A stretch of DNA of 64,000 nucleotides from Branchiostoma floridae (lineage: Eukaryota; Chordata; Leptocardii; Amphioxiformes; Branchiostomatidae): assembly GCF_000003815.2 (NCBI RefSeq), contig NC_049983.1, forward strand, positions 14,618,212-14,682,211, given 5' to 3'. The notes beneath the pieces were generated by a model. The model was given only the letters and a program-made list of their open reading frames with translations. It was not told the origin of the DNA and did no database searches. Positions 546-36,535 of the stretch are shown here, piece after piece (position 1 is the stretch's first letter; each line of letters opens with the position of its first letter). The position numbers and the translations under genes were made by a program.

Positions 546-8150
<7,605 letters not shown>

Positions 8151-13515: not shown

Positions 13516-14061
13516 GGCTGCCAATTTCAACTCTGCCTTCTCCTAATATACAACTTGACCGCCTTTTCGTGAAGGTGGAATGACCTAATGCGATGACAAC
13601 ATCTAGATATTCAACAATTTAGCTCAAAATGCCAACTCAACTTTTGACAACACGGAACCGGAAGTGACCTGGAACATCGAGACGAACGAGCGGAAGTTTC
13701 TGGTCCCGTGTACTCTCGCGAGACTTGAGGCCCATTGCGGAAGTGAAGTGGGTTCAGAAATCAACACACAGCGGCGGCTATGAAAACGATCGATTCGCGT
13801 GCGGCGGTGGCGCTGGGATTTCCTGCTGATTTTTCTGGCTACAGAAGCTAATACAGAAGCCGATCGTGCTCTAAAGGCCTACTGTGTTAGATCAGATGGT
13901 TTAGTAAGCTGTGATTTTTGTAGCTAGGTGGTTTGGATTTAGAGGATAAGGAAAAGTGCCAGGGGAGGGGCCTGGGCTTAGGGTTGACTTTTTAGCTGCC
14001 GTCCCTTGTCCGGTCGATCAGCGGTAACGGTGCATGGTGCAGCGGGCAGGCGGCTCACGCC
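13516..14061. promoter_or_regulatory. bidirectional promoter TMEM167B <-> SH3-FAM107 gene
   Basis: Only 546 bp separate the two divergent start codons. The middle is CpG-rich with three ETS-type sites (ACCGGAAGTG 13657-13666, AGCGGAAGT 13689-13697, GCGGAAGTG 13737-13745) and a TCTCGCGAGA palindrome at 13714-13723. No TATA box is evident. On the + side, two small upstream ORFs precede the main start: 13780-13851 (23 codons) and 14034-14072. The latter overlaps the main ATG out of frame. Confidence 0.8.
13714..13723. promoter_or_regulatory. TCTCGCGAGA core promoter element
   Basis: Perfect 10-bp palindrome known from CpG-island promoters, often bidirectional ones, in vertebrates (bound by BANP and related factors, established knowledge). 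It lies between two ETS-type sites. Confidence 0.8.
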
Positions 14062-14247
14062 ATGGGTGGTGAACTGTACAGGGCGAAGTTCGACTACGTG
14101 AAGGAGATAGAGACGGACAGGCCTGACGTCCTGAGTTTCCGTCAGGGGGACAGGTTCATCGTCACCCAGAAAAATGACGACAAGTGGTGGACAGCCGTGG
14201 CTGCTAAGGACAAGTTGGTGGGGTACGTCCCCGCGGCTTACTTGGAG
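14062..14247 (+). CDS. SH3-FAM107 exon 1: SH3 domain
   Basis: Start context cacgccATGG. It encodes a whole SH3 fold in 62 residues: ALYDY-like AKFDY (8-12), RT loop rich in acidic residues, KWW (41-43), and the 3-10 helix motif GYVPAAYLE. The SH3 most resembles the N-terminal SH3 type of NCKIPSD (YRALYAF ... GYVPPAYL), from memory. The donor is gtcagt, phase 0. Confidence 0.92.
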
Positions 14248-17200
14248 GTCAGTGTACATCACAATTCAGACACCTGATTGATGATACCAAGTCCTTGATG
14301 ATACCTATGCCTTCAGGTATCAAAAATAGATAATTTTCTTACCCGGTGAAATACTTGCTTCCCCTTTATTTCATTGAAAAGATTACAACACCGTCCACCA
14401 TGTGCAACTGCTGATTGATTTATGATTTATCTGAGGAATGTTAAGCTAGGATCTCCCTATGAAAAATGTGTAAACTTTGATGTGACTCATCATGTGAGCT
14501 CTTTAGTATTTTAGATATGATGTAAATACTTGACAAGTTGTATGAAATCCCGCCGGCATATTGCAGAGTGGACTAGAATTGATTCTAGAATCTTCACTAA
14601 ATGGCTTGTCACAACCAACAACATCTCTTTACAGTAGTTTGATGACTTTCAAATATTTTCCTCAATTGCCCTTCCTGCATAGTCACGACACGCACATGTT
14701 AGTATTGTTACAGTCAGACGTGTCTTTCGTGATCCATACCCAGTAGCTGTAAGTCACAGTTATTTGCCCACTGACTGTTTGCACAGGGCAATGTGGTTAC
14801 AGAAGGTACATGCTGAACTCCCTATTCACACCTCGTACCTCCCACACAAACAGTCAATCAACTGACAACCTTTTTTCTGTGTGTCTTTCAGAGGGACATT
14901 GGAAAACTGATCCCAGAGAACAGCAATAAGGTGGGTGTAAACTCTGAACATGGGCCAAACAGTCCTTCATCCGCCTCCAGTTGAAAGAAAAACATTTCAG
15001 TGCAGGGGTCATCGCCCTTTCTCTGCAGGTTGTAAAGCTTCACATTCTTCTCTAATGCACGACAAGTTTGGATTGGCAGAGACAATCACTTTCTATTATG
15101 GATACGGTCATGGCACACACACAAACACAGCCAGCACCAGACACCAGTGAAAGGAGAACCACTGAATCTGATGGATGGAACAGGAGATCCTGTTTTCATT
15201 GCTTGTTCCAAAATGATTGCAGTTTCCCATGTCCTCTGCAGTTCTATGTGATACTTGGGCAAATATAGCTGTCTGAATAGAGTCTATGTTGTTTTAACAG
15301 GGTGGAAGAAGATTGGACAAATAGTACTTCAATCATATCTCAGTGTGAAAAACAGTATGCAAATATGAGTAGAGTTTTGCAGCAGACTTTGGCCTTTTTT
15401 TCACATGATGTGATTTGGAAGGTAGTCAAACAGTTACATCCAAATTAAACAACTGCACCCCCCTGACATGTTGTTTAATAGCCCATTGCATGAACTGACT
15501 CTCATGACCAATTATTTGCTGAATTCTAACATCCATACCCCTGTATGAAGGCCTGGTGGAGGCTAGCAGGCGCTGGCCTCGAAAGTCTATGGAGCAGGCA
15601 GTGAAGAAATGCAAACAATTTGGGTTCCTTTAGTCCAAATGTAAGTGTTAATGGACAGATCTTTCAGGGGATTAAGAGTAAACTGTTGTGAGCAACAACA
15701 CCTGGAGTAGGACCTAATGGACTTTGTGGCCTGCAGTCCATCGGGATGAAAAACAAAGACCTTTGGGCTTATCCAGGCAATACTTCAGTCATACCTGGGT
15801 GAGGCAGAATGCTTTGATGCTGCTTATCTGGGGCCAGCTGTAATGTTTTATAAATCAGAAATGATAAACACCCAAGGTGATAAAAAGTTCACATGACATT
15901 GATAACCTTCTTGGAGTTATTTACTCTGTTTGGAGTCAGTCTCCATGGTGACTAATACCACAGTGTACTCTGGACAATGACCAAGTCTCCTACAGCTGTG
16001 TGTCATAGTCTCAACACACAAATACCACAGCCAAGTAGCATCTGGAGTTAAGTGCGGCCTGGGTTTCTCAAAAGCAGTCTGGCCAGGACGTTTGTATTGG
16101 ACTGCTCTCAGGCGTGTCTTAAGCTGCTGAGTGTATTGATACCATACTGTAACAAACAGAGCAAGTGGACTGAGAACCGCCATGGTAGGGTTGGTTACTC
16201 AGGTACAACGAGGCTTGTCAGGGTGTATTAAACATAGCCACACCTGGGCCCAGCTCATTTCACAGCCTGGCTGCTATGTTGGGTATGTAGGGGTGAACCA
16301 AAAGTGCAGGGGGTATGACCTGTGGGGTTAAAAGTGTTACAGTCGAAATTTGGGCAAGTACTTTCCTCATCTTAGATATATGGACACTAAAAGGATGGTT
16401 AAACAGGGCAGTTTGAATACTGATTGTATTTGGCAATCCTGCTCAGCTGGTCTTTAACTTTGTTGACTGATAAAATGAATAAAACATGACAGTAATGTGG
16501 AGATAGCCAAATGTTTTATTGTTCTGTCTTCCTGAACATTTACATGATTTAACCCTCTGGTCCATTAGGTTCCAAAGTGTATGCATGGATGACAGGACAA
16601 AGAATAGTGTCATAGCAACCAATCCTCTTCAAAGACGATGAGAAATGATGTGTAAATTATGGATTAGACAGTCTATTCCATGAGAGCATCCCCTGGGAAA
16701 TGATACAAATGTGATGTGTCAACAATATTGCTTTCACATTGTCTAGCACCATCACATTTACTGTACTTTGGCTTCCATATGAAACCTGATATTGTGAGCC
16801 TTTGCATTTTTTAAAAATTCTTGACATTTTCTCATTTCATATGTTTCATAATGTTGTAAATTTACTGTGCTCACTTTCAATTGATTGAAGATTAAAACAA
16901 TAGTACCTAATATAATGCTACCAAAAGCAAATGTGTGAAAGGTAATATGCCCCTGGGTAAGACTGCATTTTATCCATTGACCAAATCATTTATATAAGTA
17001 AATTCTTCTCCAAGCAAATTTCACCTGCAGTTAAAATTGAAGTGTGATTTACTGACAGAGTAACGTTAATGTCTGTGCACTTGTTTTTGATGGATGGCTG
17101 CCGTTATACCACCATTTTGTATGAGTGGACATGTGCATTGTACAGGCAGACTTGTACAGTGGGTATCATGATCTCATATATCACCAAGCTCTGCCAGGTA

Positions 17201-20200
17201 CAGTGTGATCAATGCATGCCAACTACCCGTGAGGACTTTTTAAACCTCTTTAATGAAACATAAACCTATTAATGCCCCAAGGTCAATCCTTAATCTAACA
17301 CTAGGAAATAACATTATTTACTTGACTTTTGCTCAATGGGAAAGATCTGCATGTCACATTACTTTCCTGTTGAGTATTCATAGAATATGGATTATATCTG
17401 ATGTTCAAATTGGGGGCTACCTGTGAAATAAAGGTAACCTGGGTTGAACAAAGCCACAGACTTGATAATGGAATGTAAACATCCCTAAGTAGGTTATCGA
17501 TCATGGCTGCCATGAAAGCTGTTTTGTCTGTCCTGGGCACAAGTTCCACTTGACAATGCCACTGCTGACCAGTCTGAAATTTGCAGCGACACTTCTTAAA
17601 ATAGATACCCTACCTATAGGTGGTATAATGTGCTCAGTATCTCTTACTCATTATTATAAAACAAAATTTTAAGTTAATTTTATTTCATCATTTACTCTCC
17701 TACCCTCCATTTCTTACATGTACGTCCCTGATTTCAGAGTCCATTGGACTCCATATGGATCATTTATAGGGAACTGTTTAGAAATATTATACTGCTCATC
17801 ATGGGTAGCTGGCATAGTGGAAACTTTTAGATAAAAGCATCACCATGTCATACTGTATTTCATATAAAATGTATCTCAGTGAGTCAGTGGAAATAGATCA
17901 GATTGTAAGAAGAAAATCAAGAATACTTTAAAGACCAAGGTGGTACTATATATATACACTACACCCAATGCCTGTGAAAGCAGAATGTATAATCAATTGC
18001 AGATTATAGCTGTGTTATTTTATCAAACTAACTCATTGTGTTACTTGTCAATTATTTGAGATTTTGACAACAGTGCACATTACACATCCTGGACATTAGG
18101 AAGCCCGTATTACTGTAAATTTTCAATCTCATGCATTTACAATGTCCTTGCAAATGGAGCGTAACATCATGCCAAATTATCAAATTAGGACAAAGGTGCT
18201 AAAGACCCAAACACCCATTGAATGGGTAATTGATCCATTTTTTATAGGTCAACAATGAGTTTGAGTTATGGTAAAGTTTCACCCCTCTGACATTTGATCA
18301 ATGTTGATACTGAAGCTGAATGTAATACCAGCTGGAATAATAGATATCAGGCTTAAAGGCAAAACATTGTAGAAAATAGATATCATGATCTTATTGAAAA
18401 TGTTTACACAAGCATACTCAATAACAATTACTGTCAATTTACAGACACCATAACATTGTCCGTCATCTTGTTACGTCAGTTTGGAAAAGATGAAGTATTT
18501 GCCTAAGTTGGGATTAAAATGATAGAGGTGTCAAACTGAAGGTGTGAAAAGCACTGACAAGTTTCATTTGGAGCACAAAGGTAGGAAGAAGATACAAACA
18601 GGCTTTTTATATATGGACCTTTGTGCTACTATCTGAAATGTTACCCTACATGAATTGAATATCATATTGCTGAGTCATCCCTGTGTCTTGAGATGATGCA
18701 TTATACTGGATGGTGATGCCTCTTCCTGGAGCTTGTTACTCAGGAAACAGGCATTGATTACTGGTAAAGAATGAAGAAGACTGACTCCTCAAGACATAGT
18801 AATTTTGATGATTCACCCATATTGGATATCTATGATCATATGACAGGGTGTTTCTTCATAGAATGTCCCAAGATAGTTTAACTGTTTGCTGGTGTAGCCT
18901 GACTACTAGTATCTGAGTTGTACTTGAAAGACCAAACATCCCCACATTCCTGGGTCTTTAATAACCAGAAGTTGGATGTTTGCCCAGTTGCAGTACTTCT
19001 TTGAAGTGGGGTCAGGAAGGATGCTTTGACCTTCAAAAGTATGTCCCTCCAAATGGCTTCCCCAGTCCATAGGATATGGGTTAGTAGATATGGGTGTGGC
19101 AGTTATCTTTTGTAGGACTGGTAGGAATTAAGGGATTGGAGGATTTGAAAAACTTGCGACTTTGGGGCAGATTACATTCCCTACACACTTTGTGCTTTGT
19201 CAATTAATATGTTTTATGAAAAAAGGAAGAAAGGAAGGAGGAAACGAGGCTTGCATGCTTTTTAGAAGCTTATTGTAAAATGCATGCTTAACGCAAGCTG
19301 TTTCGATTGCATTTATTTCCATGTAATTGATGGGTGGTGCCACCACCCACCCATGACCACCGTGGTGGTATTTCGGCATATTTCGTATTGGACATTTGTT
19401 ATAAAGTTATATATGATAGACTTTGGCATGATTCATGAATAGCTTTAATTGCATATTTTTACCTTACTGGTGTGGTCCTACAGTATTGCAATGCAAGGCT
19501 CCAACAGGATAAAGATTACAGTTAACATAGTGGGCTGGCAGACTCATTGTAAGGGTATCAGTTCGGTAATGGTGCATGCAGGGCATGATATGTGCAGACT
19601 CCAGTAATGGAGACCTGAATCACAGTTACATGGTGAATTGGAATACAATGGCTGTTATTTTCTGGTAGTGAGAGATTGGTTGAGTGCTTTCTCCCATTGC
19701 AGGTACATGTGGTAGAATTTAGGAATGGCAGTGATGGCATAATGTTACCTATTTCATGATTGCTTTTCTGATAGCCCAAGAGTACCTAATGGTATGGCAG
19801 GATCCAATCTTTATTTCATTTCACCTATGGCCCATTTCATAGTGTAATGTCTTGGAATTACTGGAAGCTCAATCAGAATGGGAGAGAAACATGTACTATT
19901 CACATATACCAAGTGTTGTGAGGTATAATAAGAAAGTTATGGATAACAGTTTGCACCACATACAGAAAAAAACAACAGATACATATAATCATATATTAGC
20001 TATCACACATACAGGAATAACAAAAGTGTCTGCAGAAACAATCTTATTAAAAGCAATTTTCAAGACAGAATCCATCTTTTAACCCATCTTTTGACAGGTG
20101 TCTGTCAAAGAAGCTGTTGGTAATTGGCCGTGATGAAAAGATATTAATTAGGCTGTGAAATGTAATGCCCTAATCAGTGTAATGGACTGGGAAATAGCCT

Positions 20201-23200
20201 AGGGGTAACTCTACACCACAGTGTAGTCTTGCACTGTGATATGTACTTGTTCTTGTATTGCAAAATCTAATCATTCTGGCCACATCACTGGCACTGTAAT
20301 AGGAAGAACAAAAAAATGGCCTTTACTGAAAAGGTCAGACCTATCAAACAGATGTTGTTAATAGTTAACTTAGTGTCCAGTTTCCTCCCTCTTCTGTAAC
20401 TTGGAAACCATCCCAGATTGTGTCAAGGATACCATATGGTTTGGTACAGTCTTAAGGCATTCATGAATAACTGATTTTGTGTATTGCTGTATGGTAAAAT
20501 TGTTAATTGTGCTATTCCGTGATGATTCTTTATCACACGATCAAGCAGTTAAACAAAACAGCCATTTTGTAGCATGAATAATTCAAACTTGTATCCAACC
20601 ACAAAATCATATTATTCCCCAAATGCTGTCAGTAGTGATATAAATGTCATAGAAACACTAAACAGGCACATACACGTCTGATGCTCCTGGCCAATAAAAG
20701 TCCAGGCAATTAGACACCCACGTAATGGCAGCAATATTAAGAGGTTATCAAAAATTCATGAAGGTTTAAATGTGGGTGACGTTTATCCATTGTAAACGTT
20801 TATCCACCACATCCATTTTAATCTACCTGAAAGACAAATGTTGCAACTAAAAGATAAATAACATTATGAAGTGCAAATTGATGTACAGTGTTGGTACCTT
20901 TTATTATTTGATATTGCCACAGGTTGGATAATACCAACAAACAAAAAGGTTTTTAAGTCAATAAGTTATAACATGTAATGTTAAATTCTTGAATTTTGAA
21001 CTCACCAGTAATTCAAAATATAAGCAAATCCTAACAATATTGGTAACATTAACAATCCTTATTTAGCGACATGTGATACATAAATAAAGCACTTAAAAAA
21101 TTGTAGGGTTGTACCGTCTTAGTAGCATGTTAACAATGATGATAACCAATAGGATGAATTTGATCATCATATCATATGAAAAAATGTCAGGCACATTTTT
21201 AGCAGTCTGCTTGTGTCAGAGAATGACTTAGAACACTTAGAGCACTTAAAACACATGTACTGTTGCAGGATCAAGTTGCCAGGTGTCTTGTGTTGATTAC
21301 ACCTGTTGCTATAATTCAGTTCATACTTGGCGAGCAAAGGTGGATAAAGGATCCTCTGGCTCTTTCTATATTATCTGTATATGAAAATTATAGCCTGTTT
21401 TCGGCTTTTCTTACTTTCTTTCCATCTTTAATACTTTCTCCCATGTTATTTTCTTACCTTCCCCTTTTTAGTGTTATCATGGTACTTGACACGTGCCTTA
21501 TGAAACTCTGCATGGGGAAGTGCCAGTGCCTAGCAAATATTTAATGTCCACACAAACTCTTCCTGCAAACACAGTTTGGTTAGTGGGTAAAATTTATTGC
21601 CAGTGTTTTAGCTGTTAGGCCACCTTTCTTTTTATTATATGGATGCAAGCGTGCCCAAAAAAATTGACCAAAAAAAGTTGCCTTCGATATGAAATCTAAC
21701 TGATAATTCTACGACTGAACAATTATAGATCTTCATACTTGTTCTTACACATCTTCTTCTTTAACCTCATACATTCTCCCAATATTTTCCAATCTTGGGC
21801 ATGTATTTGCTCATTTTGCAGCTGATTTATACAGAATAGTTTTTATTGTTTTTAGAAAAAGACGAAAATTGATCCCAATGTCTAGAAAGATCCTACAAAG
21901 AAGAATTTGTCATTTGGACATTTTTACATCTTTAAAGTTTAATCACTGATTTTGTTTTTCAAATTCGATGGAATAGTTTTGTAATTCTTCTGGTATACAC
22001 AGCAAAGTTCCATCAACTCAGACAGCAAGATGCTGGTGCTGGCTGAAGCCCTGGTTCCCAATTGGGAAATCAGTCATTTAACAACTGATGAACCAATCCA
22101 ACTAAGCAATGCAGTTGAGCAATTGTTTTTGCCACCCTGATTGGCTTTCCATGCTATTGGTATTACCATAAACCTGGCCTAGTCATACAATTTATATGTT
22201 AGAATATTATGCAGGTTCAAAAGGAAGGAAGGAATTTCTGTAGAATTATTCAGTACATATATTGATGAATCAAAGTGGCCTTGGACAATGGGACATGCCT
22301 TGAATACATTTTCCTTATCTTGGTTGGTCCTGGACAAGTGAGCCTTTTAGAAATAAATGAAGGGGAAAAAAGAAAATTGATGTGACAAATTGAATAGATA
22401 TACAAATGTATACAAATATGAACGTGAATTCATTATCTGATGTTATTGCCTATATTGTGTTTTAATAATATGTTCCCGGAATAGTAGCTATAGACCTAAT
22501 GGCTATATCGGACCTTGTCAGATGAACAAAGATGACTATGGTAATTTGCAAACATAACTGTCCATAGGTTGTGACCATTTATGGGTGTACAGATGTTCTA
22601 AAATAACAATTTGGTTGTATTTTCAACCTTCCCCCACCCCATTTTCTATAGGACCGTCCCTTAAAAGGTAACTGTCGGTTACTCTACATTCATCCAACTA
22701 AGGCTTCTGGGAAGGCCGGGCAGCCATATTGGATTTGTTATTAGCCCATTCATTTTATTGATGCCTGTGTAACGTAAAGAATTGACTCCTAGCGTCCCTA
22801 TATTGTTCACTACCCATTAGCCTCAACAAAATGGTATGCTATTTTTTTAAAGACTAGGTCTGGAAACTGTACACTGGTAGTATCAAGGGAGGAAAAATTG
22901 AACATGCAGAATTTTTTTCCCATGAGTGGTTAGAATTTGAGGTCATTCCCTTGGTGATTCACTCGTCACATGTGGACGGCAGTGCATGATGGCTTCCTTT
23001 GTGTCTCTACAGGAAAGGGCCAGACACAGATCAATGGAGGAGTTATCCAGAATAGATTCTCACAGAATACCCAAAGTCGGTGGATCGCCTGCTCTCTCCA
23101 GGTCGCCGGGCTCACCAGGTAAATTTTTAAAATTATTTTTCCCTTACTTCATTACCATGACGTGGAGTTACCTGAGAGGAGGCAATTATGTTACGCAGCT

Positions 23201-26200
23201 GTTTTGTGTAAATAGGTGACTACTGGGGAGGGGCATTGAAAAATTTGGTATTCACTCCAGCAGTGTTTACTGGACAGTTATTACGAGATAAGGAAAATCC
23301 TTGGATAAATAATGATGCGGAATAGCTCGGTTGGGTTGGTTTAATGTGAAGACATATTTTGGTATCCAGTGTGATAAAAAATTAAAATAACTAGAAAGGC
23401 CGACATTTGCTTAAGAGCAAATACAGCATATTTCAGCCGTACCCCTTCCCACGCAACATTGGACTGTTCCAAATCACCCCTGCGCAAAAATGGAACATCC
23501 TCTTAACAGTACATTATCCCCCAGAGTGGACTGGTATTGTGAATTGATTCCAGGTAAAAACAGAGCTTGCTTCTATTTTTCAGAAAATGACAATAATCAC
23601 ACCTTCCATTCAGAAAATTTTCATCATGACTGAAAATTGTTGAATGACTTCATGTAATGTCATTAACAATTTTCAGTACGATAACTAGGTGTAAGTTTAA
23701 AAAAGTATAAGCTCCTTGTGATGTGGGTACATTTATTATTGCAGTGAACTTTTTTTATTCAAGTAGGGCATACAATTTAATAATTATCAAGCAGGTGCAG
23801 GTACTGTAGGAGCGTTTGTTTTCTTCAAGCTGTAAAACTGTTAAACTGTTTTACTTTGTATGCAATCAGCCATCGAGCCTATTCTTATTTTAGTTTAACA
23901 ACTTCCTGCCAGACCCGGAAGATACGATTGAACCTTGTTCGAGGATTTATTTTCGTCTGTCTGGTCAGTCTGTTCATACCCTGGCGCTGAGAGTGTTTTA
24001 TTGGGCTGAAACTCTGGCAGTTTAAAGTTACTTACAATTTAAATGTTCAAAATTTATGTCAAACAACAACAGCACTAGGAAATGTGGCCACTATAGACAG
24101 GTGGTCACTATAGAGAAAATGCTGATCTATTGACTAGGAGCCATACGTTACACATGATTTCAGTACACTGATCATTAATCATATAAACATTGCACAGGTA
24201 AGCCAATTGTTTAGATGTACAATTAAGTTCAAATAATCTTCGCCCACCTGGGTCCCCCCACAGTGGCCCTGCCCCTGGACCCCGCCAGGGACATTCGGCG
24301 GCCCCCGGACCCCTGTCCAACGCTTTGAAAAAATCCTGTCGAGAAGTCTGTACGGCTTGAGTCTTCAAGTTAACGTATTGTGTGGTCCCGCTTATGAATA
24401 TTAATTAGCCTTTGCTTTCCTCTTCGCTGATTGGCTGAACCATTAATTGAATTAACTCTTCCTGCCGGCTAGACGCAGGTGCAGATGTCGGCTCTGTGGG
24501 GTGAACGTCCGAAAGGTCATGGCATGGAGAACGAAAGAAAACCAATTTCCCCTAAAAAAAGGGCTGTAATTAAGCCTTTTACAGTACTTTATGCCAAAAA
24601 TTTTACTTTGAATCTTATGCCTATCTATACCTAATGTTACTCATACCAGGGTACAGGGGTGCAAAATATACCGTTATAAGACCGTCAACAACAGTCACAC
24701 GGAGCTAACAGCGCAGCGAAAATACCATCGCTAGCGTTTCAACTTCGGATAACAAGTTATTAGTACTGTTGAACTCAGTAACGTTAAAGTTTGTTTTCAG
24801 TTGCCTTTGACGGTTTGACCTGAAATAGTGTTACGCTAAACTCCTGAAGAGAAGTTAAGTGACTGCTGCGATTATCATAGATATGCCCCTAAGAACTGAT
24901 ACAATACAAAGCCTTCTGAATAGTCTAAAATGCGAGAGCCTTAGGAGGGCTTCGCTCCCCCTGGCGGGAACACTGCTATATACGGGATCATGAGGCCCCG
25001 CTTATGAATATTAATTAGCCTTTGGCCTCCTCTTCGCTGATTGGCTAGGTCTTTGATTCAATTAACTCTCCGGCTGACGCGCACAGGTGTGGCTCTGTGC
25101 GGGGTCACGGAAGGTCACGTCAGGAGGCCAAAAGAAAACAAACTTCCCCTCAGAAAAGTGCCAAAATTAATCAATTTAAAGTTGTTTATGTCAAAAATTT
25201 TACTTGAATCCTGTTACCAAGTATCTAATGCCTATCTATACCAAATTTCAGGTCATTTAATTGTAATACCAGGGTACAGGGGCCAAAAGTGTCCTTTTTT
25301 GGTCAAAAATTGGCCCAAAATCGCAAAAATAAGCATTTTGTTGCACTGTACACCAAAAGTGTTATTGAATTTATATGAAGGGATTATCAAGGCACATCTG
25401 TGTCAAATTTCAGCTCATTCGGTTGCAATACCAAGGTACAGGAGCCAAAAGTGTCCTTTTTTGGTCAAAAATTGGTAAAAAAATCGCAAAAATAAGCATT
25501 TTGTTGTACTGTACACCAAAAGTGTTATCGAATTTATATGGGGGCATTATCAAGGCACATCTCTGTCAAATTTCAGCTCATTTGGTTGTAATACCAGGGT
25601 ACAGGGGCCAAAAGTGTCCTTTTATGGTCAAAAATTGGTAAAAAAATCGCAAAAATAAGCATTTTGTTGTACTGTACACCAAAAGTGTTATCGAATTTAT
25701 ATGGGGGCATTATCAAGGCACATCTCTGTCAAATTTCAGCTCATTTGGTTGTAATACCAGGGTACAGGGGCCAAAATATACAGTTTTGGTCTAAAATTGA
25801 CCAAAAAATCTCAATAAAATCATTTTAGAGGCAGATATGAAAAAACTGAGAAAAAAGCATCAAGGTATTGGCCCATTCTACCCCTGTGCCAAATTTCAGG
25901 TCATTCGGTCCAGGAACGGCGGAGATGAATCACTTTGAAGATTTGACAGGAGAAAGAAAGAAAGAAAGAAAGAAAGAAACATTACGAATACAATATATTT
26001 CACCATACTATGTATGGCTGAAATATAATTGTTTAGAATTGCTTAGGCTTTGTCAGGACATGCCACATCATATACATGTACCATAAAGCCTAAGATTTAT
26101 GGACCCTGATGATAGCATATTCATGGAACTGTTTGATATATTTGGTATATCTAGTAAATGTACTTGATTATTCACAATAGAGGAGAAGAGAAAAGATATG

Positions 26201-29200
26201 CAGTAATTGTACAGTTTTGTTAAACTCTAGCAAGGTCAGCTTTTAGTATACTGGTTTAAATTCCCTATGCTACATGTTCTGCCATTGTCTTTCATTCTTA
26301 AGTTTAGAATACAGGAAAGGAAACTGCCTAGACAAAACTGTTATAGATATGGTTGTGTTGAACAGTAGATATGACTCTGTAAATATTATTAGTTGTACAT
26401 GATGTTTTCTGCCATTGTCGAATCCAGGGTCTTGTGTTCATCAGCATTTTCAGTTTGTATTTTTTCTGTCCTTTTTTTGAATTTATAAATAAGGAAATGA
26501 CTAATTTGCTCTGTGAGTTGTGCGTACGAATTCTATTGTCCTAATTTACATGCATGAGCATGAACACAAGAGGTCAAACCCTGACCACAAATAAGGACAT
26601 GTGCACCTATCAATGCCATGCCATAGGGGAAAATTCATGTATTCTAAAGCAGTTTTAGTGCCCCTTGTATGCTGTTGCTATGCAATCTAAATGTGCCATT
26701 ACATGTACATTTATGTGTAGATGATCAGCATGCATTTGCTATTAAACATTTCATCATTTGAAATGTTGCAAATGAATTGAGAATGCCATATTGAAAATAG
26801 AGTGACTGTCCTTCTAGCAAGACAATAATTTGTGTTCATGAGAAATGATGATAAAATTCATAAATTTTTAACCACAATTTTTTTGTTTATCTGAATGCTC
26901 TATCTTTTGTTCTTGAGAAAGACGGCTGTGAAATTCCCACGGGACATACATGTAGCATAGATCACACACCCACCTGGATTGACAGGTATTACTTCCACTA
27001 GGCTTATCACGCCTCTACCACACCCACGCACACATTATTGTCTATAGCATGCTTTAAGGGCATGTTCCAGAAGTCGTCCTTTTGAAAATCTCACAGCTAC
27101 ACCTGGATCTCTTGTTAAGGGTGGCATTTGTCTTCCACTATCCTCGTGAGTTCAAGTACAGTAAGAAACACTCCACATCATAGCAATCATACTGATATTT
27201 GAGTTGGATTAAAGTGTGAAGACTTTTCAGTATGGAGAGGTATGTGTGCATTTGTCTTGGTTTGGAAGGATTAGCTGCACATGCTGCATTGATATTGGTT
27301 GCTTTATAATGTTGTGCACAGAGCGGGTTTGTGTATAAATCTTCTATGTGCTACTATTCACCTGGAAGCTTGTAAACTCTAGCTTTATTATTGATTTTGG
27401 ATGAAATATTACCTGATAAATAATGATTCAAATAAATTCCTTGCAAATCCAATGATGACCACTTAATAAGTGATCATGAGATGACTGTACTGGGAGATGG
27501 TTCATGTAATTCTATTTCATTACTGCACTACATACATAGTATATGTACATTTTGTATTTCAATTGACAATTTTTAAATTTTGAGTATACATGTACACGAA
27601 CAATAGTGTATATAAGGCATGGTTCTATATATTGATTGCACTGATTCAAATGGCATCGTCCAAATGATAACTAGGACAGTGATACATTGATTTATTTGTT
27701 GATTTTGTATTTATTTACAACTTACAAGGGAACGAAAGTCTATCAATGTGTGGTCTTGTTATTGGTATTATTAGACATGACTCAGAGACATGGTCACGAA
27801 TGATTCATTCCTGATATCATAATTTGAATTTCCCACAAGATGTTGGAACAGCTGCAGTTCTGTCTGATACAGATAGAGGTGCTGCTGACAACAGACTAGT
27901 TTGCAACTAGTAATATCAGTTTGTTGGCCCTCTTTACATATTCATCTACATCAGAAAATTCAACACATTCCTTCATTGAAATATCATAAGGTCTTCTGTT
28001 ACATACAAAATATGGATAATAAGATACTTGTCATTGTCAGCCTCTAATGTATGCAGGTAACTTTTTTTTCCAAAAGATGAAGTGCTGTGAGCTTAGAAAA
28101 AAACAACAGACAAATAACATTTCTAAATCTGCAATTTGTGTTTGCAATAATAGTTAATACTTATTGGAAAGTCCTATTCACTTATCAAGATACATGTTTC
28201 TATGAATTGAAGTTGGACCCTTTTACCTAGATACTGCTGTCAAATATCTTACACCAATGTCCACATGAAGGTAGCAAACAGGTCACTTGTGGTCATTGCC
28301 CCTTTTACCTGTCCAGACTATTGGTGCTTGTCCATCACATTGAATGACATGTTTGCTACCCGTTGTTTTGACACAGCACTTTGTTGACTGTTGAATGATA
28401 CAAAACAGAACATGTTCTTTTGAAGGAAAATGATAAGTCACCCCCCTTAATTTGATTTAATCTTCTATCGTATGTTTTATATAGTCAATATATTCAAAAC
28501 AAGTATAAACAGGACTTCAACTGAGTCATTTCATGTACAAAATTTATAACTGTCATGACATTCTCCCAGCTAACATTATACATGAACAAAATTAAGTTTA
28601 TTGATGGAAGTGGACAAGCAGGGAGTATATCAGTGCTTTGGTGACTACAGGGTATAATAAAGTTAAAACTGTTTTCCCAACACGACAAGTGCCATTAGGT
28701 TGCTCTCATGTCCCTTGAGCAAACACCTGAACCTGTCAGAGACTTTACACATGTCTGCGTGGCACCGTTGACCTCTCACCTGGATGGTACACGTGGTGTG
28801 GTCACTGACCTCATTATTCTTCTGTTTCTCTCAAGTTGTCATAACATTATCATAACAGACAAGGACGTTATATAAAGATATATAACATCCTTGTTACAGA
28901 TGTTAACATAGAATTTCCTTCTCATTATCAGTACCTCAACTTCAAGTTCTTGTAGGTCTAAAATATTTATGTTATTTTTTCTTTAAATTTGTAACAGCAA
29001 AGAACAAGTAAGAAGCATGTTTTTCTAGTATTATCTGCTGCGCATAATGCACATATCTATTATATTGGAATTTATCAGAAAAAATAAGACTGTAATTACA
29101 GCATTCTCCTCCCCCTTGTGTCACAATGGAGCAGTCTGAGCTCTCCAATTTCCACTTCAAACAGTTTTGACCAATGAAAGCCTGAACAAGCACATCCCCA

Positions 29201-32200
29201 TTTGCCCTGCAGCATTTGGCTAGTACAAAAACAGGCACTACACTGTCATCAAATCAGAGCAGTTTGAACAACTGCTGCTTGATAGGTCCCACAGACCCTG
29301 GAATGTGAACCTTCTGTTGACCATTCTCTTCACATTACCTGGACAGTCAGCTGGACCTTACTCCTTATTATCTGATTGTGTGCTGAGAGCACTTCACAGT
29401 GTCTCCAGTATGAGCAAGGTTGCCCAGTTACAGCGTAGCTTGTCAGAGAAGCTTACGTTGTACAGCACGTCCCCTGATCATCAGGACAAAGGTAAACCTG
29501 CTTTTACAATTGTGACACAGAAAACACATGTAGTCCATTTTCAGTTTTGTGCAGCATTGTTGCCATGCTTTTTAATAATCCAGGAAGCACTTTTAACTTG
29601 TTTACTATGAACAAACTTGACATTCTTTCTATAACAATCTAGATACTTATAGATAGCATATAAGTATATGTTTCCATCAATTTGTGAATAATTCATATGA
29701 TCTTTCTGGCATTGTACCTTGCTTAGAGTGACAATAAAAAGAACAATGGCATAAACAAGTGTTGCCTTGTTATGTAAGGTTTGAAAGAAATTGTTCTTAA
29801 AGAAAGTTGCAGAGTTGCCATCCTTAGACAATATGCAGAAGAGGTTTTCATTCCTTTAACAATCCGGGGTGTATCCCAAGACAACAATGTTCTGACCCAT
29901 TACAAAAGAAAAACAATCCTTTCGCAAACCTGGGTATACCTATCCATAACCTTAAGATGAACTGACCCTAGCTACTTAATGTATCTGGTACTCAACAGCT
30001 CCTAGGAAACTCTATTTACATAGATCTGGGTTTACGTGTTACCCAAACACAAATGATTGGGGAACGCAGTTATTTGCAAAAGTTTTTTCCTCATCTTTTC
30101 TGGCAGTATCTTTGCTGTTTGCAGGCTAACTCTGAAAATTAGTCTGGATCATTACACACAAAGATTGTTCCTTCCCCAAACGTCATACATGCGTCAACAA
30201 CAGCAAACATGTTGATGAACCGGTTGTACAGAACAAAGTGTGTACCTTGACTATTGTCCCATGGACAATGTGCATCCAGAGCTGTCACTCAAAGATCAGA
30301 CATGTATGTCAGAGCAAGATAATTATGGCTGGCTGACTGACTTTTACCTGAGGACATGTAGCTGCCAACCATACATAACTTGCAGAAAATTAATTTGTTG
30401 ACACAATGGTCTACAATATGCATGTACTGGTACATGTATGAGCATTATGATATGTATAATGTATATTGATGAAGACTATTATTTCTTTTTACTCATAAAC
30501 AACCTAACAAAAACAATTTTTTATTACAATGTACTGTCAGTAATTTTTTTTTTTTAATTTTTCAGTTTTACCTGTATACCATGGTGGAGAAATCAACATA
30601 CTATAGTATCTATCTTCAAGTTGCTAGATCTTTTGCACATGAGCTTATATGTCATTATGGTATGTGTGCACAAAGAAGGAATCATTTAATTGACTTACAT
30701 ATAATATATTACTAATATAGAAAGTTGATGTTTTAATGTCTCAGTAGCATACCTAATATGCATTATTATAACTAATAAAGGAAGGCATTTCTATTCTATT
30801 TCCTTTCTAATGAGAGAATTCAGTCACATTGCAGAAAGCTGTGTGAAAACAATGGTATAGTTGTGTCACGAGCTGTGGTTCCTGTAGTGAAGTGGCCATG
30901 CAACACTTCCCAACTCATGAAGGGTGCTCCATGGGTCACTGTAGGACAGAACACCAGCTATGCTGTGTCTGCTGCTGCCCCTCCATGCATGCAGAGCCTG
31001 TCCAGTTGTGTGTGGGGGAATGCCATTTGATTGGTTCTGACAATGTGTCTGGTTATGCCATGGGGTCAGGAGAAAAATTGCAGCCATGCAGGGATATGTT
31101 GAAAACTTTTCTGCACATCGTCAGATCTGTAAAATTTTGGCAACAGGGTAGTGCTGGAGTGATTCTTTTTCCATACACATGCTAGCACTGTCAATATTTG
31201 GACGGCTGGGTATTTGGGTGGCAGCTGGTAGTAGATTTAAGAAGATGAGCTTAGGAAGTTTAGGAAAGGGGAATGAAAAACATAATGATTCCAAAGTATA
31301 ATCTCATACACCCAACCAAGGGCATACATGTAAATGCCCTTGACCTAACTCATCAGATAAAACTGTTTTTTATGCCAGGACAACTTTAGCTGTTTTTTAT
31401 AATCACATTTGAAATACAGTTTAGTTCAAATTACTCTTATTAACCACTATGTCTCTTTGTCCTCTAAAATGAGGGTGATAGATTTTGAAGCATACTGCTT
31501 TTGTGTGAAAAAGGTCTTGTCAATAAATAGGATTGGAATAGTGAGTAATGAGGTAGCAGCTTGTGTGTGCCATGTGCCACAGAAACGCAGTAAACATTGA
31601 CAGACTTGCTCAAGTGTGGCAGCAGTAGGTGTTTGGATTGGCCACCTCAGGTTTTCATGGAGTTCACACAGTCATTAGTGGAAATTGGAAAATCTGGAAT
31701 TAGTTCATGTTAGGGGATCTCCTGCTTTTGATTTTATATCGACTTGTATCTCAATAACTTGTCATTGTTCTTATCTTCATGGTGAACAAAGTGATAGTGC
31801 AATGATCTGCAGAAACACTATTTATTATTCAAGTATATGAGAGTTGGGTAACAAGTTTTCAAAGACACAAAAACAGAATACTATTATATTATTATAGAAT
31901 ATCATTATTTATCAATTTTCTGTGGGTAATGAGCCCAACTGCAAAGAATGTATCTGTTTATTTACTAATGTCTGTACATTTTTTGTGTATATGGAAAATG
32001 AATAAGAATAGCAAGAACAAAAAAAACAGAATACTTGCATGTTGTTGATTCCTTCCATTTTGTTGTTGCTACAGGTTACATGACCCCAGATGAAGACTAT
32101 GACCATGAGCCCAGGTGTGAACAGGAGGAGTATGAGGAGGAGGAACACAGACTAATTGCTCCCAAGAAGCTGCCCAACCCTGTCAAGGACTCCAAGAATC

Positions 32201-33357
32201 ACCAGCAGCTCCATCGAGAACTGACACAAAACAAAAGACTGTACGTTCATGACACAAATCTGCAAATATATGTTGCCCCACTTCATACTATTATCACACT
32301 CCTATATTTAATAAAGACATGTAATGCTAGTTCCCCTTTATCTGCAGGGAAACCTATAACAGTTGTATCTAAGAACAGGGTATTTAGGTATATAATGTCG
32401 ACGGACAATGTTTTCAAGTGGCAACATTTTCGCAATTTTGCAGTTCGAAAGTACCGTCCATTGACGGAACTAAATACCCTGTTCGGATATAGGATATTAT
32501 AAGGTTACCCCGCAGATAAAGGTGAACTAATGTTAGTATGCTGTTGTGTTAGACTAGAGGGTTTAAAATGGGAAACATGCTCTGTAATATTCCATATAAA
32601 AATCTTGTCTCTATTGTTCTGTTCCTAATTTTTCCACAGAAAAAAATAATCTTGCTTTCCAGAGAATTAAAGAAACTACGTGACTTTTTTGCATCGTCTC
32701 TGAGGGTAGATTATAATGTAGGACAGTATGAACAGCCTATGGACAAACACAAGAGCCAATGTTGTCAGTTATAAGTTTTTAAACATGTCCTTTGTTCTGT
32801 TGTCCAGGGGCATCAACCCTCTCCACAAGAAGCCTGAGCTGCAGAAGAAATGGGAGGAGAGGAACAGAACCAAGGACAGCGAGAAATTCAGGGAACAGCA
32901 GGAGACAAACATCACCTTACAACAGGAGTTTCTTATGGAAACCCAGAAACGGAGAGAGGTAAAGACTCGCAGAGATAACTTAGGGGAAACTTCTACTATC
33001 TGGTGTCTTTAAAACATATTGTGAGATAACATATTAAGAACATATTGTTACATACTCTATACATTTCTGTAGCATTGTTTTTGCAAACTATCAACTACCC
33101 CTACCTCCCGATTAGTAGCTTGAATCGATCACTGTGATGATAGGTTTCAAAATATTTATAAAAGTAAAGTTGGATAAGGGAAACTTGTACTTGTTGGTGT
33201 GTTATGTCAGAAATTATTATAACTTTTAATATGTTATATTTTTGTCTCACAGCGACAAGAAGCCCAATCGAAGGAGGAAAGTAAAGAAGACAAGCCAGAA
33301 TTTATGAGAGTGTCCCTTAAGTCAACAGGAAGGCCGGTTACACCTGAGCACTCCTAA
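14062..33357 (+). CDS. SH3-domain protein with C-terminal FAM107 (DUF1151) domain, seven exons
   Basis: Exons: 14062-14247, 14892-14930, 23013-23118, 29351-29491, 32075-32240, 32808-32958, 33253-33357. Junction phases (0,0,1,1,2,0) all agree and give 297 residues. Residues 4-62 form an SH3 domain (RAKFDY, Trp42-Trp43, GYVPAAYL). Residues 63-183 are a low-complexity Ser/Pro, basic then acidic linker. Residues 184-280 form the FAM107 domain (LPNPVKDSKNHQQLHREL, KKPELQKKWEERNR), with PEFMRVSLKSTGRPV near the end. FAM107 proteins associate with actin and chromatin-linked functions in vertebrates. SH3 would add proline-rich partner binding. Vertebrate FAM107A/B as I know them are about 130-145 residues without SH3. 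The start is the first ATG after a good context (gccATGg). The weakest link is the 8-kb jump between exons 2 and 3. Confidence 0.8.
14892..14930 (+). CDS. SH3-FAM107 exon 2 (39 nt)
   Basis: Encodes RDIGKLIPENSNK between ctttcag and gtgggt, phase 0 both sides. Small exons of this kind may be skipped without changing the frame. Confidence 0.75.
14931..23012 (+). other. 8-kb intron of the SH3-FAM107 gene
   Basis: No conserved exon, clear TIR element or tandem array recognised. There is a local cluster of GTGG/CCAC inverted bits at 19331-19371 and a short CA-rich tract near 15115. Confidence 0.55.
23013..23118 (+). CDS. SH3-FAM107 exon 3: Ser/Pro-rich linker
   Basis: Encodes ERARHRSMEELSRIDSHRIP then KVGGSPALSRSPGSP, between ctctacag and gtaaat, phase 0 in and 1 out. 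RHRSME and SRSPGSP look like phosphorylation-prone sites. No family is recognised. Confidence 0.72.
25261..25790 (+). repeat. 163-bp tandem repeat, about 3 copies
   Basis: The anchor tcgcaaaaataagcattttg recurs at 25321, 25484 and 25647, exactly 163 bp apart. Open frames across it shift because 163 is not a multiple of three, so it is not protein coding. Confidence 0.9.
25951..25980 (+). repeat. GAAA microsatellite
   Basis: About seven GAAA units directly before the 3' hairpin of the repeat element. Confidence 0.9.
28860..28893. repeat. hairpin
   Basis: caaggacgttatat and atataacatccttg pair with one mismatch around a short A-rich loop. Confidence 0.6.
29351..29491 (+). CDS. SH3-FAM107 exon 4: linker
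   Basis: The acceptor at cagtcag is chosen because the alternative four bases further left (ggacag) leads to an in-frame stop. It encodes GPYSLLSDCVLRALHSVSSM then SKVAQLQRSLSEKL. Phase 1 in and out, so it is skippable. Confidence 0.72.
29492..32074 (+). other. 2.6-kb intron of the SH3-FAM107 gene
   Basis: AT-rich; a short palindrome (CAAGGGCAT ... ATGCCCTTG) lies at 31318-31342. No exon or element recognised. Confidence 0.55.
32075..32240 (+). CDS. SH3-FAM107 exon 5: acidic stretch and start of FAM107 domain
   Basis: Starts GYMTPDEDYDHEPRCEQEEY, then EEEEHRLIAPKK and LPNPVKDSKNHQQLHRELTQ. The second part aligns with FAM107B ([20 protein letters not shown]). Met160 (32080-32082) could start a 138-residue short form. 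Confidence 0.93.
32330..32527. mobile_element. MITE with TA target duplication, copy A
   Basis: A 198-bp element flanked by TA, starting gttcccctttatc and ending gataaaggtgaac. Subterminal inverted segments (ggtatttaggtat; aactaaatacc) lie inside. A relative is at 58453-58640. It fills most of the intron between exons 5 and 6. Confidence 0.8.
32808..32958 (+). CDS. SH3-FAM107 exon 6: FAM107 coiled helix
   Basis: Encodes GINPLHKKPELQKKWEERNR and a charged, Glu/Gln/Lys-rich predicted coiled coil ending ETQKRRE. Phase 2 in (split Leu codon), 0 out at gtaaag. Confidence 0.93.
33253..33357 (+). CDS. SH3-FAM107 last exon
   Basis: Encodes RQEAQSKEESKEDKPEFMRV then SLKSTGRPVTPEHS and TAA. The PEF..V...RTG pattern is shared with the C-terminus of FAM107B (PEFVKVKGNLRRTG). 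Confidence 0.93.
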   Translation, partial: RQEAQSKEESKEDKPEFMRVSLKSTGRPVTPEHS

Positions 33358-35886
33358 TGTAGGGTCAGTAGAGGACCATGTACAGCACTTGAACCTTAAG
33401 GCAATATAATCTTATTTTTTCTGCATCATGCCTCTCCAAAACTGCAGGGTGGAGTGGATAGATGCACTCTGATTTACTGTAGCCACTGACAAACAGATGG
33501 GAGGTCACATCAATCTCATTTTGTTATCCACAATATTCTTTTCAAATATCAGATGAATTTTTGAGATAATGAGCCAAATTAAGCTGTTTCGAACTTTGGA
33601 GGAGTCACTATAAGTTATAACTGACCTAAGTAAAAGGCATTCCCTATCAGCTGTTATTGTCAAAAGCTTGATGATGCATTCCACACATCTTTGAATTGTA
33701 ATTTTAGTTTATGTAAATGGCTAATAAACATTCATGATGCATGCATGTCAAAGTGCCATGGAAGCATGACTGTAAGGAGGAAACCACAACTTTGATTTTC
33801 CCAGCTATTTGATGAGAAATTGATGTTGATGTGGCTGCTGAAATATTGAGCAAGAAGCTGAGGAGGACATCAACATTTAGAGTTTGATAAAAGTGATCAG
33901 AGAGGACAATGCTTGCAACAAAGTGGAGAGTGATGCACCATTTAGAGAAAATGGTTTACTTACCCAAGCTTTTTTAGCCGACACCCTTACCTGAAAAGTA
34001 GTGTGTATGACACAAAAATACGGACACCTTCTGCCATGAATTGAATAGTATTCTCCACTTATCATGGTGTCTTTATCAGGGACTTAGAGGTGGGCATATG
34101 TTGGCCATATCTAGGAACATCAGAAAGAGCAACAAGTAGACAGGGTTGCCATTATCTCTACTTGTTCCATGACTCTCTGAACAAACCAAATGATCTTTCA
34201 GGGGTACTTTAATCATATCCACAGTAAATAAACTGGCCTTCTGTTCCATTACAAAGCCTGAAAGGCCAATATAAACTGACAAGCTAGCCCAGTGGCTGTC
34301 TACTGATTGCTTTGTAATGTATCATAATTTTGTTTGTTAGCAGGAACCATTTTCTGCCAGTATGTTTGCAATGTTAGTGATAAGGCATGTAAGCAGTGAC
34401 AGGTGTTCTAGGTATGTTGTTAGTTATTCTTATTGAGCAGAGAAAACAGCATTTGTTTAATTTGTAGTAATTGTACTGTTTTATGAGTACAGTATACCCA
34501 ATTTCTCATAAGACTTATGTCTATTCTAAGCCAAGAATTTATGATCTATACTACTTCTTTGATTTCTTTGTTTGTAATCAGTTATACAATGTTTGCTATA
34601 ATTTTGGTTCATGATCATGTATCTTTATTGTAATTGTCGGTTCTTGTTTAGCACCGTGTGGAAGCATTGTAAGTACCGGTAGTGTGATATGAATTATTCC
34701 ATGGACTGTCCAGTATGTCACCAGCGGTGTGACCAAGTATGCTTCTCGTTGATGAATGTTTTATTTCTGTATTTTGAAATTTGCTTTAGATAAGTGTTGA
34801 TCATCATTTAACCACTTATGTTTGGGTGTCCTTCATTCAGATTAAATATGTTATGTCATTCAGAAAAAGTTAAAGATTTTATGGGGCATGGGATGATATA
34901 GATATAAGTTAATTTGTAAGCTTTCTACAGGTTGTAGTTTTGCAAAATCACTGATATTCTTTTGTGAATAGTAACTTCTGTTGCTGGAGAATATGGCCAT
35001 TTGCTAATTTAGCCATGTGCAATTATTTTGTAGACTACATATGTATGTTAGGCAATACACAAGACTTGTGGAAAATCATTTATATGTATCTCCTTGGTGA
35101 TTATTTCAGGTGTTGTTCTGTCTCTGTCTTACACACTTCAGTTTCTAGTTTTATGTCGATACTGTTTCTTCCTGGTTTGATATTACAATTCATTCCTCTT
35201 GTAGGTAATATAATGTTTTGTAATTTCTGTTGTAGTAACATTACACTGTATGGTGTGGAGTTGGGTGCTTTGTATAAAGCTAGAGTGGCAAACCAAGAAA
35301 AAGTCAGATAATTCATGTATTTGTATTTCCTATTAGCGCTGCTTGTTTGTAATCACATGCCATATGCCTCAAGACTAGGATATGAATCACATCAATTTTT
35401 ATGTCACTTCAGGGTGGAAACTGGCCACAGTAACAGATATATCAGCGTGTATAATATCGATAAATATCCTATGTTGGACAACATTTTTCTTCAGCATCTT
35501 AAGTTCATTGATAGAATACCTGAAGTGATGACGGTGATGGGAAAATGGTAGAATACCTGAGATTCAATCAGTTGTATCTTGGTACAAATATGCATGGAAT
35601 TAAAGAGAGGAAAACTAAGAATATCAAAAACTGATGTCCATGACTTGGTCTTGGGGTTGACAACAATGTCTGCAAAGTACAACAGATGCTCAAAAAATGT
35701 GCATGAAGTTGCAGTTTGTGTGTGTTGTGAACTGCTGGGGTGGTGGCTGCAGTACCGCAGTGAGTCAAAAGAGGGCAGCATTGCAGCGTGTCAAACAAAG
35801 TACATGTAACGTTACATGTATTTGCCATTTTATTTTACCTTATGAAGTTTTTTCTGCTCTTTGATACTTGAAACCTATGGAATAAA
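33358..35886 (+). other. probable 3'UTR of the SH3-FAM107 gene
   Basis: Non-coding, AT-rich sequence ending at AATAAA (35881-35886), followed by T/G-rich sequence near 35910. An earlier AATAAA is near 33722. The extent is inferred. Confidence 0.45.
35801..35820. repeat. 20-bp perfect palindrome
   Basis: tacatgtaacgttacatgta is its own reverse complement. Confidence 0.9.
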
Positions 35887-36299
35887 GGTTTCTCTTCATA
35901 TCTCAGGATGTTGTGTTGATTTTTTTTGTCTCTCACAGGATTTACTTTATTATACAGAAGTGACTGAACAAAGTAGATCTAACTTTTAAGAAAGTGTTGA
36001 GAAAAGTCATGAAAACTGTCTTGTGTATGTCAGCAGGAAGCGTTTGCTATGTGAGAATGCAATGGCCAAATCGGGTAACTAGTGAAAGAAGGATTCTAGA
36101 AAAGAATGCATAAATGTCTTTAACGTTAGGTCGTTATAAAAAGAGAAAAAAATCATTGGAATGGGCCAATTTCATTACCCATTCTCTAGTTGTAGGAACT
36201 GTAATAAAACAGGTAACCAGGATAAGAAATTACGTGATACGTTGAATATTTACGACTTAAATCAACATTCAGTTCATGGTACAGACACTAGTCATCTGC

Positions 36300-36535
36300 T
36301 TCATGTGTTTACAAAGAGTGGGCGTGTGCCGAAGTCCTGACGTACTTCGTGCGTTGTCGGGTCAACTCGTGAGTCATCGGCTTCTTCCGGAAGCCTTCCG
36401 ATCGGCCAACAGGTTAATTTGCATAAGGTCAAAATGGCGGTTTCGTCAGTTTCTCAAACAGTCGATATCGAAAATGACAGGCGATCGTGACCAAACTACG
36501 AAGAAGTGGTGATCAGAGGCAGACGGAATCCAAAG
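36300..36535 (+). promoter_or_regulatory. FRMD4: candidate FRMD4 promoter and non-coding first exon
   Basis: CpG-enriched block with TGAGTCA, a palindromic ETS-type ttccggaag and a YY1-like AAAATGGCGG (36431-36440). It ends in caaag|gtaagc at 36535/36536, a strong donor. An 18-codon ORF from the ATG inside the YY1 site stops at 36490, so any exon here is 5' untranslated with a uORF. Linkage to the coding exon at 49042 is inferred from position and strand only. Confidence 0.5.

Follow-up and report, generated by a model that had tools for sequence, protein, structure and literature searches.

The stretch of the Branchiostoma floridae genome analysed here (64,000 nucleotides, positions 14,618,212 to 14,682,211 of contig NC_049983.1; hereafter the window) holds what sequence signals support well as a single gene encoding one protein with an SH3 domain at its N-terminus and a FAM107 (DUF1151) domain at its C-terminus. 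Seven exons on the plus strand, between 14062 and 33357, have a summed length of 894 nt and when joined translate into 297 amino acids (aa) followed by a stop codon. The original prediction had described just such a chain of seven exons in agreeing phases, with splice sites at every junction, and both statements hold: the joined frame is open over all 894 nt, the phases agree throughout, and GT-AG borders are present at 6/6 introns. Upstream of the start codon the same frame meets a stop at 13993, with no in-frame ATG in between. The exons, all on the plus strand, are:

14062..14247, plus strand: exon 1, holding the start codon and the whole SH3 domain (62 aa), ending in phase 0
14892..14930, plus strand: exon 2, a 13-codon linker, RDIGKLIPENSNK, phase 0 to 0
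23013..23118, plus strand: exon 3, a linker segment containing RHRSMEEL and SPALSRSPGSP, phase 0 to 1
29351..29491, plus strand: exon 4, of doubtful or optional status, 141 nt long, phase 1 to 1, with an internal ATG at 29410
32075..32240, plus strand: exon 5, an acidic stretch and the FAM107 core NPVKDSKNHQQLHREL
32808..32958, plus strand: exon 6, FAM107 helical region
33253..33357, plus strand: exon 7, remainder of the FAM107 domain, C-terminus and stop codon

The two domains of the predicted protein

The N-terminal SH3 domain of the original prediction is confirmed by Pfam, in which SH3_1 (PF00018) matches residues 7-58 with 36.7 bits (cut-off 22.9) over the whole of its profile (1-48 of 48). 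The peptide groove appears intact: at the positions of Src Y90, Y92, D99, W118, P133 and Y136, the lancelet domain carries F, Y, D, W, P and Y, with 5/6 identical and the first Y changed to F, and the groove D adjoins a four-residue insertion. An AlphaFold2 model of the SH3 made from the single sequence has five strands and a short final helix (mean predicted local distance difference test score 75, predicted template modelling score 0.57), and is poor at residues 1-9. PxxP motifs lie in the linker at residues 107 and 110, with a further one at 291, and RxxS motifs at 79, 88 and 139; these sites make self-binding or control by phosphorylation possible, but speculative.

The C-terminal FAM107 domain was likewise recovered, as a near-full-length match to DUF1151 (PF06625; residues 184-284, 65.3 bits against a cut-off of 25, profile 3-104 of 109). 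Except for SH3_2, the other Pfam matches of the 297-aa protein were below cut-off, and NCBIfam gave one weak match, far below its cut-off. No solved structure related to the FAM107 domain came up in a sequence search of the PDB, and among viral contigs eight pattern matches to it yielded no confirmed relative (0 of 8). When the genome (513,431,437 bases in 431 contigs) was searched exon by exon with the PF06625 profile, with two candidates scored, the sole DUF1151 match at E 0.001 was the locus described here.

What the lancelet protein has in common with the FAM107 family (FAM107A/DRR1/TU3A and FAM107B/HITS) is a near-complete domain with the NPVK..NHQ.LHREL core; it differs by the addition of an SH3 domain and a long linker on the N-terminal side. 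According to a 2014 review, the mammalian members are 131 and 144 residues long, DUF1151 is without match to other conserved domains, and Drosophila CG9328 is shown as a FAM107 relative (PMC3990222). The 297-aa model departs from this state of the family (short and single-domain, which is customary and not a formal criterion of membership), and a 167-aa form, discussed below, would come close to it. The contrast originally drawn with vertebrate FAM107A and FAM107B, as short proteins lacking SH3, agrees with the two mammalian lengths just given; a longer isoform of human FAM107B, about 306 aa, is also listed in databases.

One transcription unit or two

Splice sites were scored with generic matrices. 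Among the 298 candidate internal exons thereby defined in 14260-33300 (open frame plus a low score floor), exon 3 ranked first, exon 2 third and exon 6 sixth, with exons 5 and 4 at ranks 31 and 121; the second-ranked candidate, 23102-23215, overlaps exon 3. Coding scores, calculated from a human codon table and compared with 2000 equal-length open intron windows per exon, were reached by 0/2000 windows for exons 1, 5 and 6 and by 2/2000 for exon 7. Exons 2, 3 and 4 are plausible but not proven by content, because 18, 10 and 53 of their respective 2000 intron windows equalled or beat them.

At individual sites, exon 2 has a donor of rank 2/1196 and an acceptor of rank 31/1143. The donor of exon 3 is strong (rank 8/1196) and matches exon 5 directly in phase, and the exon 5 acceptor, joined in phase to exon 3, opens the longest run (142 codons unspliced) among the 22 strongest of the 1134 acceptors in 14062-33400. 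Of the open frames of exon 3, the claimed one is the only one whose phases fit both exon 2 on one side and exons 4 and 5 on the other. From these signals we infer splicing across the interval from 14930 to 29351, including a junction from exon 3 to exon 4 or exon 5. Since exon 4 is 141 bases long and in phase 1 at both ends, the reading frame runs on from exon 3 into exon 5 when it is skipped. Exon 4 may thus be an optional exon, or else an alternative first exon with its start at ATG 29410, and the fusion is independent of its inclusion.

Several observations speak against this chain of exons. The model makes no use of the top-scoring donor in 14062-33400 (24197, which adjoins a repeat) or of the five top-scoring acceptors there, and a second open frame in exon 3 outscores the claimed one (11.6 vs 7.0 bits). 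Exon 4 has a weak acceptor (rank 274/1143), and another AG lies four bases upstream of it, from which the sequence reads into a stop. Exons 3 and 4 together gave no Pfam match up to E 1, and therefore no homologue confirms them. Chimeric gene predictions are, moreover, described as a known and common source of false domain pairings (PMC3927609).

Within exon 3 itself we noted a second strong acceptor at 23102 (score 7.7 vs 6.6 for the exon's own acceptor), which would alter the linker if used. A repeat origin of the exons was considered and is not supported, no exon matching a 220-kb genome sample or the flanking parts of the window. Repeats that do recur in the sample or the window occupy 23389-23511, 24080-24196, 24710-24936, 25078-26029 and 32317-32528.

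The proposed unit is bounded by a CpG-rich stretch on one side and a candidate polyadenylation signal on the other:

13601..14400, no strand assigned: CpG-rich stretch, observed/expected (o/e) CpG 0.87, likely a two-way promoter for a TMEM167-type gene (minus strand) and the SH3-FAM107 gene
35881..35886, plus strand: AATAAA, likely 3' end, with the best downstream GT-rich stretch of the 16 AATAAA in 14000-36500
13215-13515, minus strand: TMEM167-type gene, DUF1242 at 48.2 bits against a cut-off of 25, start at about 13515

The DUF1242 match presumably represents TMEM167/Kish. As this minus-strand gene starts at about 13515, head to head with exon 1, the promoter region is probably common to both genes. 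From the value of 0.87 at 13600-14400, CpG o/e falls to 0.21 at 14400-23000, 0.19 at 26000-32000 and 0.27 at 32000-36000, and reaches 1.18 at 36200-36800; the median over 191 sampled 1-kb stretches of chromosome C5 is 0.61. Poly(A)-like scores, which measure downstream GT content at AATAAA sites only and leave ATTAAA unscored, were highest (0.95) at 35881, past exon 7, and low at the three AATAAA of the exon 3-4 intron (0.60, 0.55 and 0.40).

Neither kind of signal is free of conflict with a single unit. CpG o/e rises at 23000-24000 (0.55) and 24000-26000 (0.64), and the value for the whole window is low (0.31), so that CpG depletion alone marks no gene borders. Repeats mask most of 24000-26000, where the 734 unmasked bases keep an o/e of 0.68, and little of 23000-24000, where 878 unmasked bases have an o/e of 0.54; the persistence of CpG in unmasked bases would allow a second promoter near exon 3, although one at 23-26 kb, where repeats and a 163-bp tandem array lie, is disfavoured. 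The runner-up poly(A)-like site, 16478 (0.80), falls within the exon 2-3 intron, and sites 29733 and 31522 (both 0.75) lie between exons 4 and 5.

These conflicts bear on two other arrangements. The locus might contain two transcription units, with exons 1-3 making a short SH3 protein whose last exon lies unseen in an intron, FAM107 started separately (near 23-25 kb, at exon 4 from ATG 29410, or at exon 5 from ATG 32080), and the fusion an artefact. Such an arrangement would accommodate exon 4, which is poor as an internal exon yet has an in-frame ATG and a usable donor, as well as the CpG o/e rise at 22.4-25.4 kb, which repeats explain only in part, the short lengths of the mammalian FAM107 proteins (PMC3990222) and the frequency of chimeric predictions (PMC3927609). 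The strong exon 3 donor, whose phase fits exon 5, the weakness of the three AATAAA in the exon 3-4 intron and an ATG context at exon 5 that is poor by eye all argue the other way, and we regard two units as improbable.

Alternatively, the fusion promoter might be accompanied by an internal promoter for a short FAM107, so that both proteins exist and vertebrates kept the short form. Frame and phases permit both products, the 167-aa protein from ATG 29410 still matches DUF1151 (66.2 bits), and the internal promoter could correspond to the CpG bump at 22.4-25.4 kb. However, CpG o/e is 0.16 at 29.2-29.6 kb and 0.19 at 32.0-32.4 kb, and therefore neither exon 4 nor exon 5 coincides with a CpG-rich start; we consider this dual arrangement rather unlikely, though less so than two separate units. 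A single SH3-FAM107 gene, as originally proposed, is carried by the frame, the Pfam domains, the exon ranks, the CpG pattern and the poly(A) signals; a part of the proposal that stands less firm is exon 4, which is doubtful or optional.

Around this gene, a tandem array at 25242-25826 (163-bp unit, 3.6 copies) lies within a block of repeats at about 24.1-26.0 kb, some of whose parts are found again in the genome sample or elsewhere in the window. Downstream, a CpG-rich stretch at 36318-36540 with AAAATGGCGG and a GTAAGC donor probably opens the next gene on the plus strand.

Origin of the SH3 exon

A search of the genome with the SH3 domain plus exons 2-3 gave 17 matches from 20 scored candidates, two of which were the query locus itself. 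The closest other SH3 among the scored matches, at C5:14357971-14358138, had an E of 8.2e-6, and the remaining 14 had E of at least 0.0118. It aligns with NCKIPSD (9i2b) from residue 1 (1.3e-10). GRB2 and Src-type SH3s outscore NCKIPSD for this domain (up to 2.9e-12); an exon about 7 kb downstream of it matches NCKIPSD (2.6e-10) and nothing else up to E 0.01, and it is because of this downstream exon, taken as part of the same gene, that we name C5:14357971-14358138 the probable first exon of lancelet NCKIPSD.

This exon lies 274 kb from exon 1 of the SH3-FAM107 gene on the same chromosome, a distance within which about 0.1% of the genome falls (a rough, after-the-fact hand estimate). The SH3 of lancelet NCKIPSD is identical to that of SH3-FAM107 at 26/60 positions, the most of the 16 compared, and both SH3 exons begin with the start Met, contain the whole domain and end in phase 0 after GAG. 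In a tree of 17 sequences the SH3-FAM107 domain groups with the human and lancelet NCKIPSDs (support 91.1/86), with Src outside the group. NCKIPSD (SPIN90, WISH) is an actin (nucleation) regulator; it resembles the lancelet fusion in its N-terminal SH3 within a single Met-start exon, the closest scored SH3 in the genome, and differs by a large C-terminal region, absent from the SH3-FAM107 protein, and by having no FAM107 domain.

A link of the SH3 exon to NCKIPSD is, on these sequence comparisons, probable, although the evidence is not all of one kind. Src has the higher pairwise score (119 vs 114 for NCKIPSD), and in a PDB search with the SH3 plus exons 2-3 the best matches were Src (8bq3), HCK and NCF1, with Src above NCKIPSD (2e-8 vs 6.3e-6). 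The tree support drops to 67.9/77 with 26 sequences and to 0/68 with 23, and with 25 sequences, human NCKIPSD being omitted, the grouping is lost. The exon may accordingly derive from a Src-like or some other SH3 gene, with the 274-kb nearness due to chance. We rate that origin as somewhat short of an even chance: it would fit both the top pairwise and PDB scores of Src and the instability of the NCKIPSD grouping, but not the top non-self match among scored genome matches (NCKIPSD at E 8e-6, the next at E 0.012), the like exons that start with Met and end in phase 0 after GAG, or the 17-sequence tree that places Src outside. ARHGAP12/27, also considered as a source of the SH3, is not favoured, ARHGAP12 having a pairwise score of 91 vs 114 for lancelet NCKIPSD.

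Returning to NCKIPSD as the probable relative, nearness suggests local duplication, from the nearby NCKIPSD/SPIN90 SH3 exon, as a further possible origin of the SH3. A DNA comparison with the NCKIPSD locus and exon found nothing beyond short chance-level matches. Such a loss of DNA likeness could also reflect age, and the pairing of SH3 with FAM107 might be ancestral to chordates or older, with the SH3 exons lost in vertebrates. Three of the four trees unite human with lancelet NCKIPSD to the exclusion of the SH3-FAM107 domain (51/72 with 17 sequences, 79/81 with 26 and 42/65 with 23), which would fit an old split. Against this, fast change in one lineage would yield the same tree, and Drosophila CG9328 belongs to a family described as having no match to other conserved domains (PMC3990222); we hold an ancestral pairing to be doubtful. 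Still less likely is the full sequence of events in which the first exon and promoter of SPIN90/NCKIPSD were copied over a small distance on the chromosome to a place in front of FAM107, creating a bundler recruited by proline-rich ligands, before lancelets and vertebrates split, and were then lost in vertebrates to leave the short stress proteins FAM107A and FAM107B.

Some neighbouring sequences touch on the history of these loci. At 8007-8138 (plus strand) the window has an exon that matches MAP kinase-activated protein kinase 2 in its C-terminal part (E 3e-12). In human, MAPKAPK3, NCKIPSD and FAM107A all map to chromosome arm 3p, an arrangement that would fit linkage of long standing. Next to NCKIPSD is a long coding stretch (L042 7807-8331), which to our eye resembles an SLC35C-type sugar-nucleotide transporter, and at the NCKIPSD locus (L026) a motif like AAAATGGCGG precedes the NCKIPSD start.

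Proposed action and meaning for the FAM107 family

The explanation that we find likely is one gene, running from the CpG-rich promoter to about 35.9 kb, whose SH3-FAM107 product bundles actin at sites set by SH3 docking. Transcription would start at the promoter at about 13.6-14.06 kb and end at about 35.9 kb, giving a product of 297 residues, or of 250 residues with exon 4 skipped. In this protein an N-terminal SH3, its peptide groove intact, would be followed by a linker that is probably disordered and then, at the C-terminus, by the FAM107 domain. Its biochemistry we infer by analogy. Mouse DRR1/FAM107A binds actin at both of its ends, bundles it, slows elongation and very likely dimerizes through its middle part, according to one study (PMC6321462). 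Since the FAM107 part of the lancelet protein spans nearly the whole profile, DRR1-like action is likely, and it would bind and bundle actin and form dimers as the mammalian protein does.

The SH3 would dock proline-rich partners and in this way choose the sites of bundling, as may be expected from cortactin and drebrin-like protein. These are SH3-bearing actin binders whose SH3 guides their location, and the likeness lies in the combination of an actin-binding part with an SH3 docking part; in both, the SH3 sits at the C-terminus and the actin-binding parts are not known to be related, and no kinship is claimed. The SH3 exon itself would be an old copy of an NCKIPSD/SPIN90-type first exon, a step that is probable but weaker than the rest.

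In the titles, abstracts and passages available from the literature on FAM107, DUF1151, SH3 or amphioxus we found no report of an SH3-FAM107 pairing, and the protein may already be present in automatic annotation. Both FAM107A/DRR1 and FAM107B are induced by stress and linked to actin, and a mechanism for their conserved domain is still needed (PMC3990222). If RNA bears the fusion out, the lancelet protein would be a new kind of member for this stress and cytoskeleton family. Gene fusions often point to the function of the partners, and this natural fusion hints at joint action of FAM107 and actin machinery guided by SH3 domains, which may be of the SPIN90 kind. A comparative question follows as well: when SH3 joined FAM107, and whether vertebrates lost the SH3.

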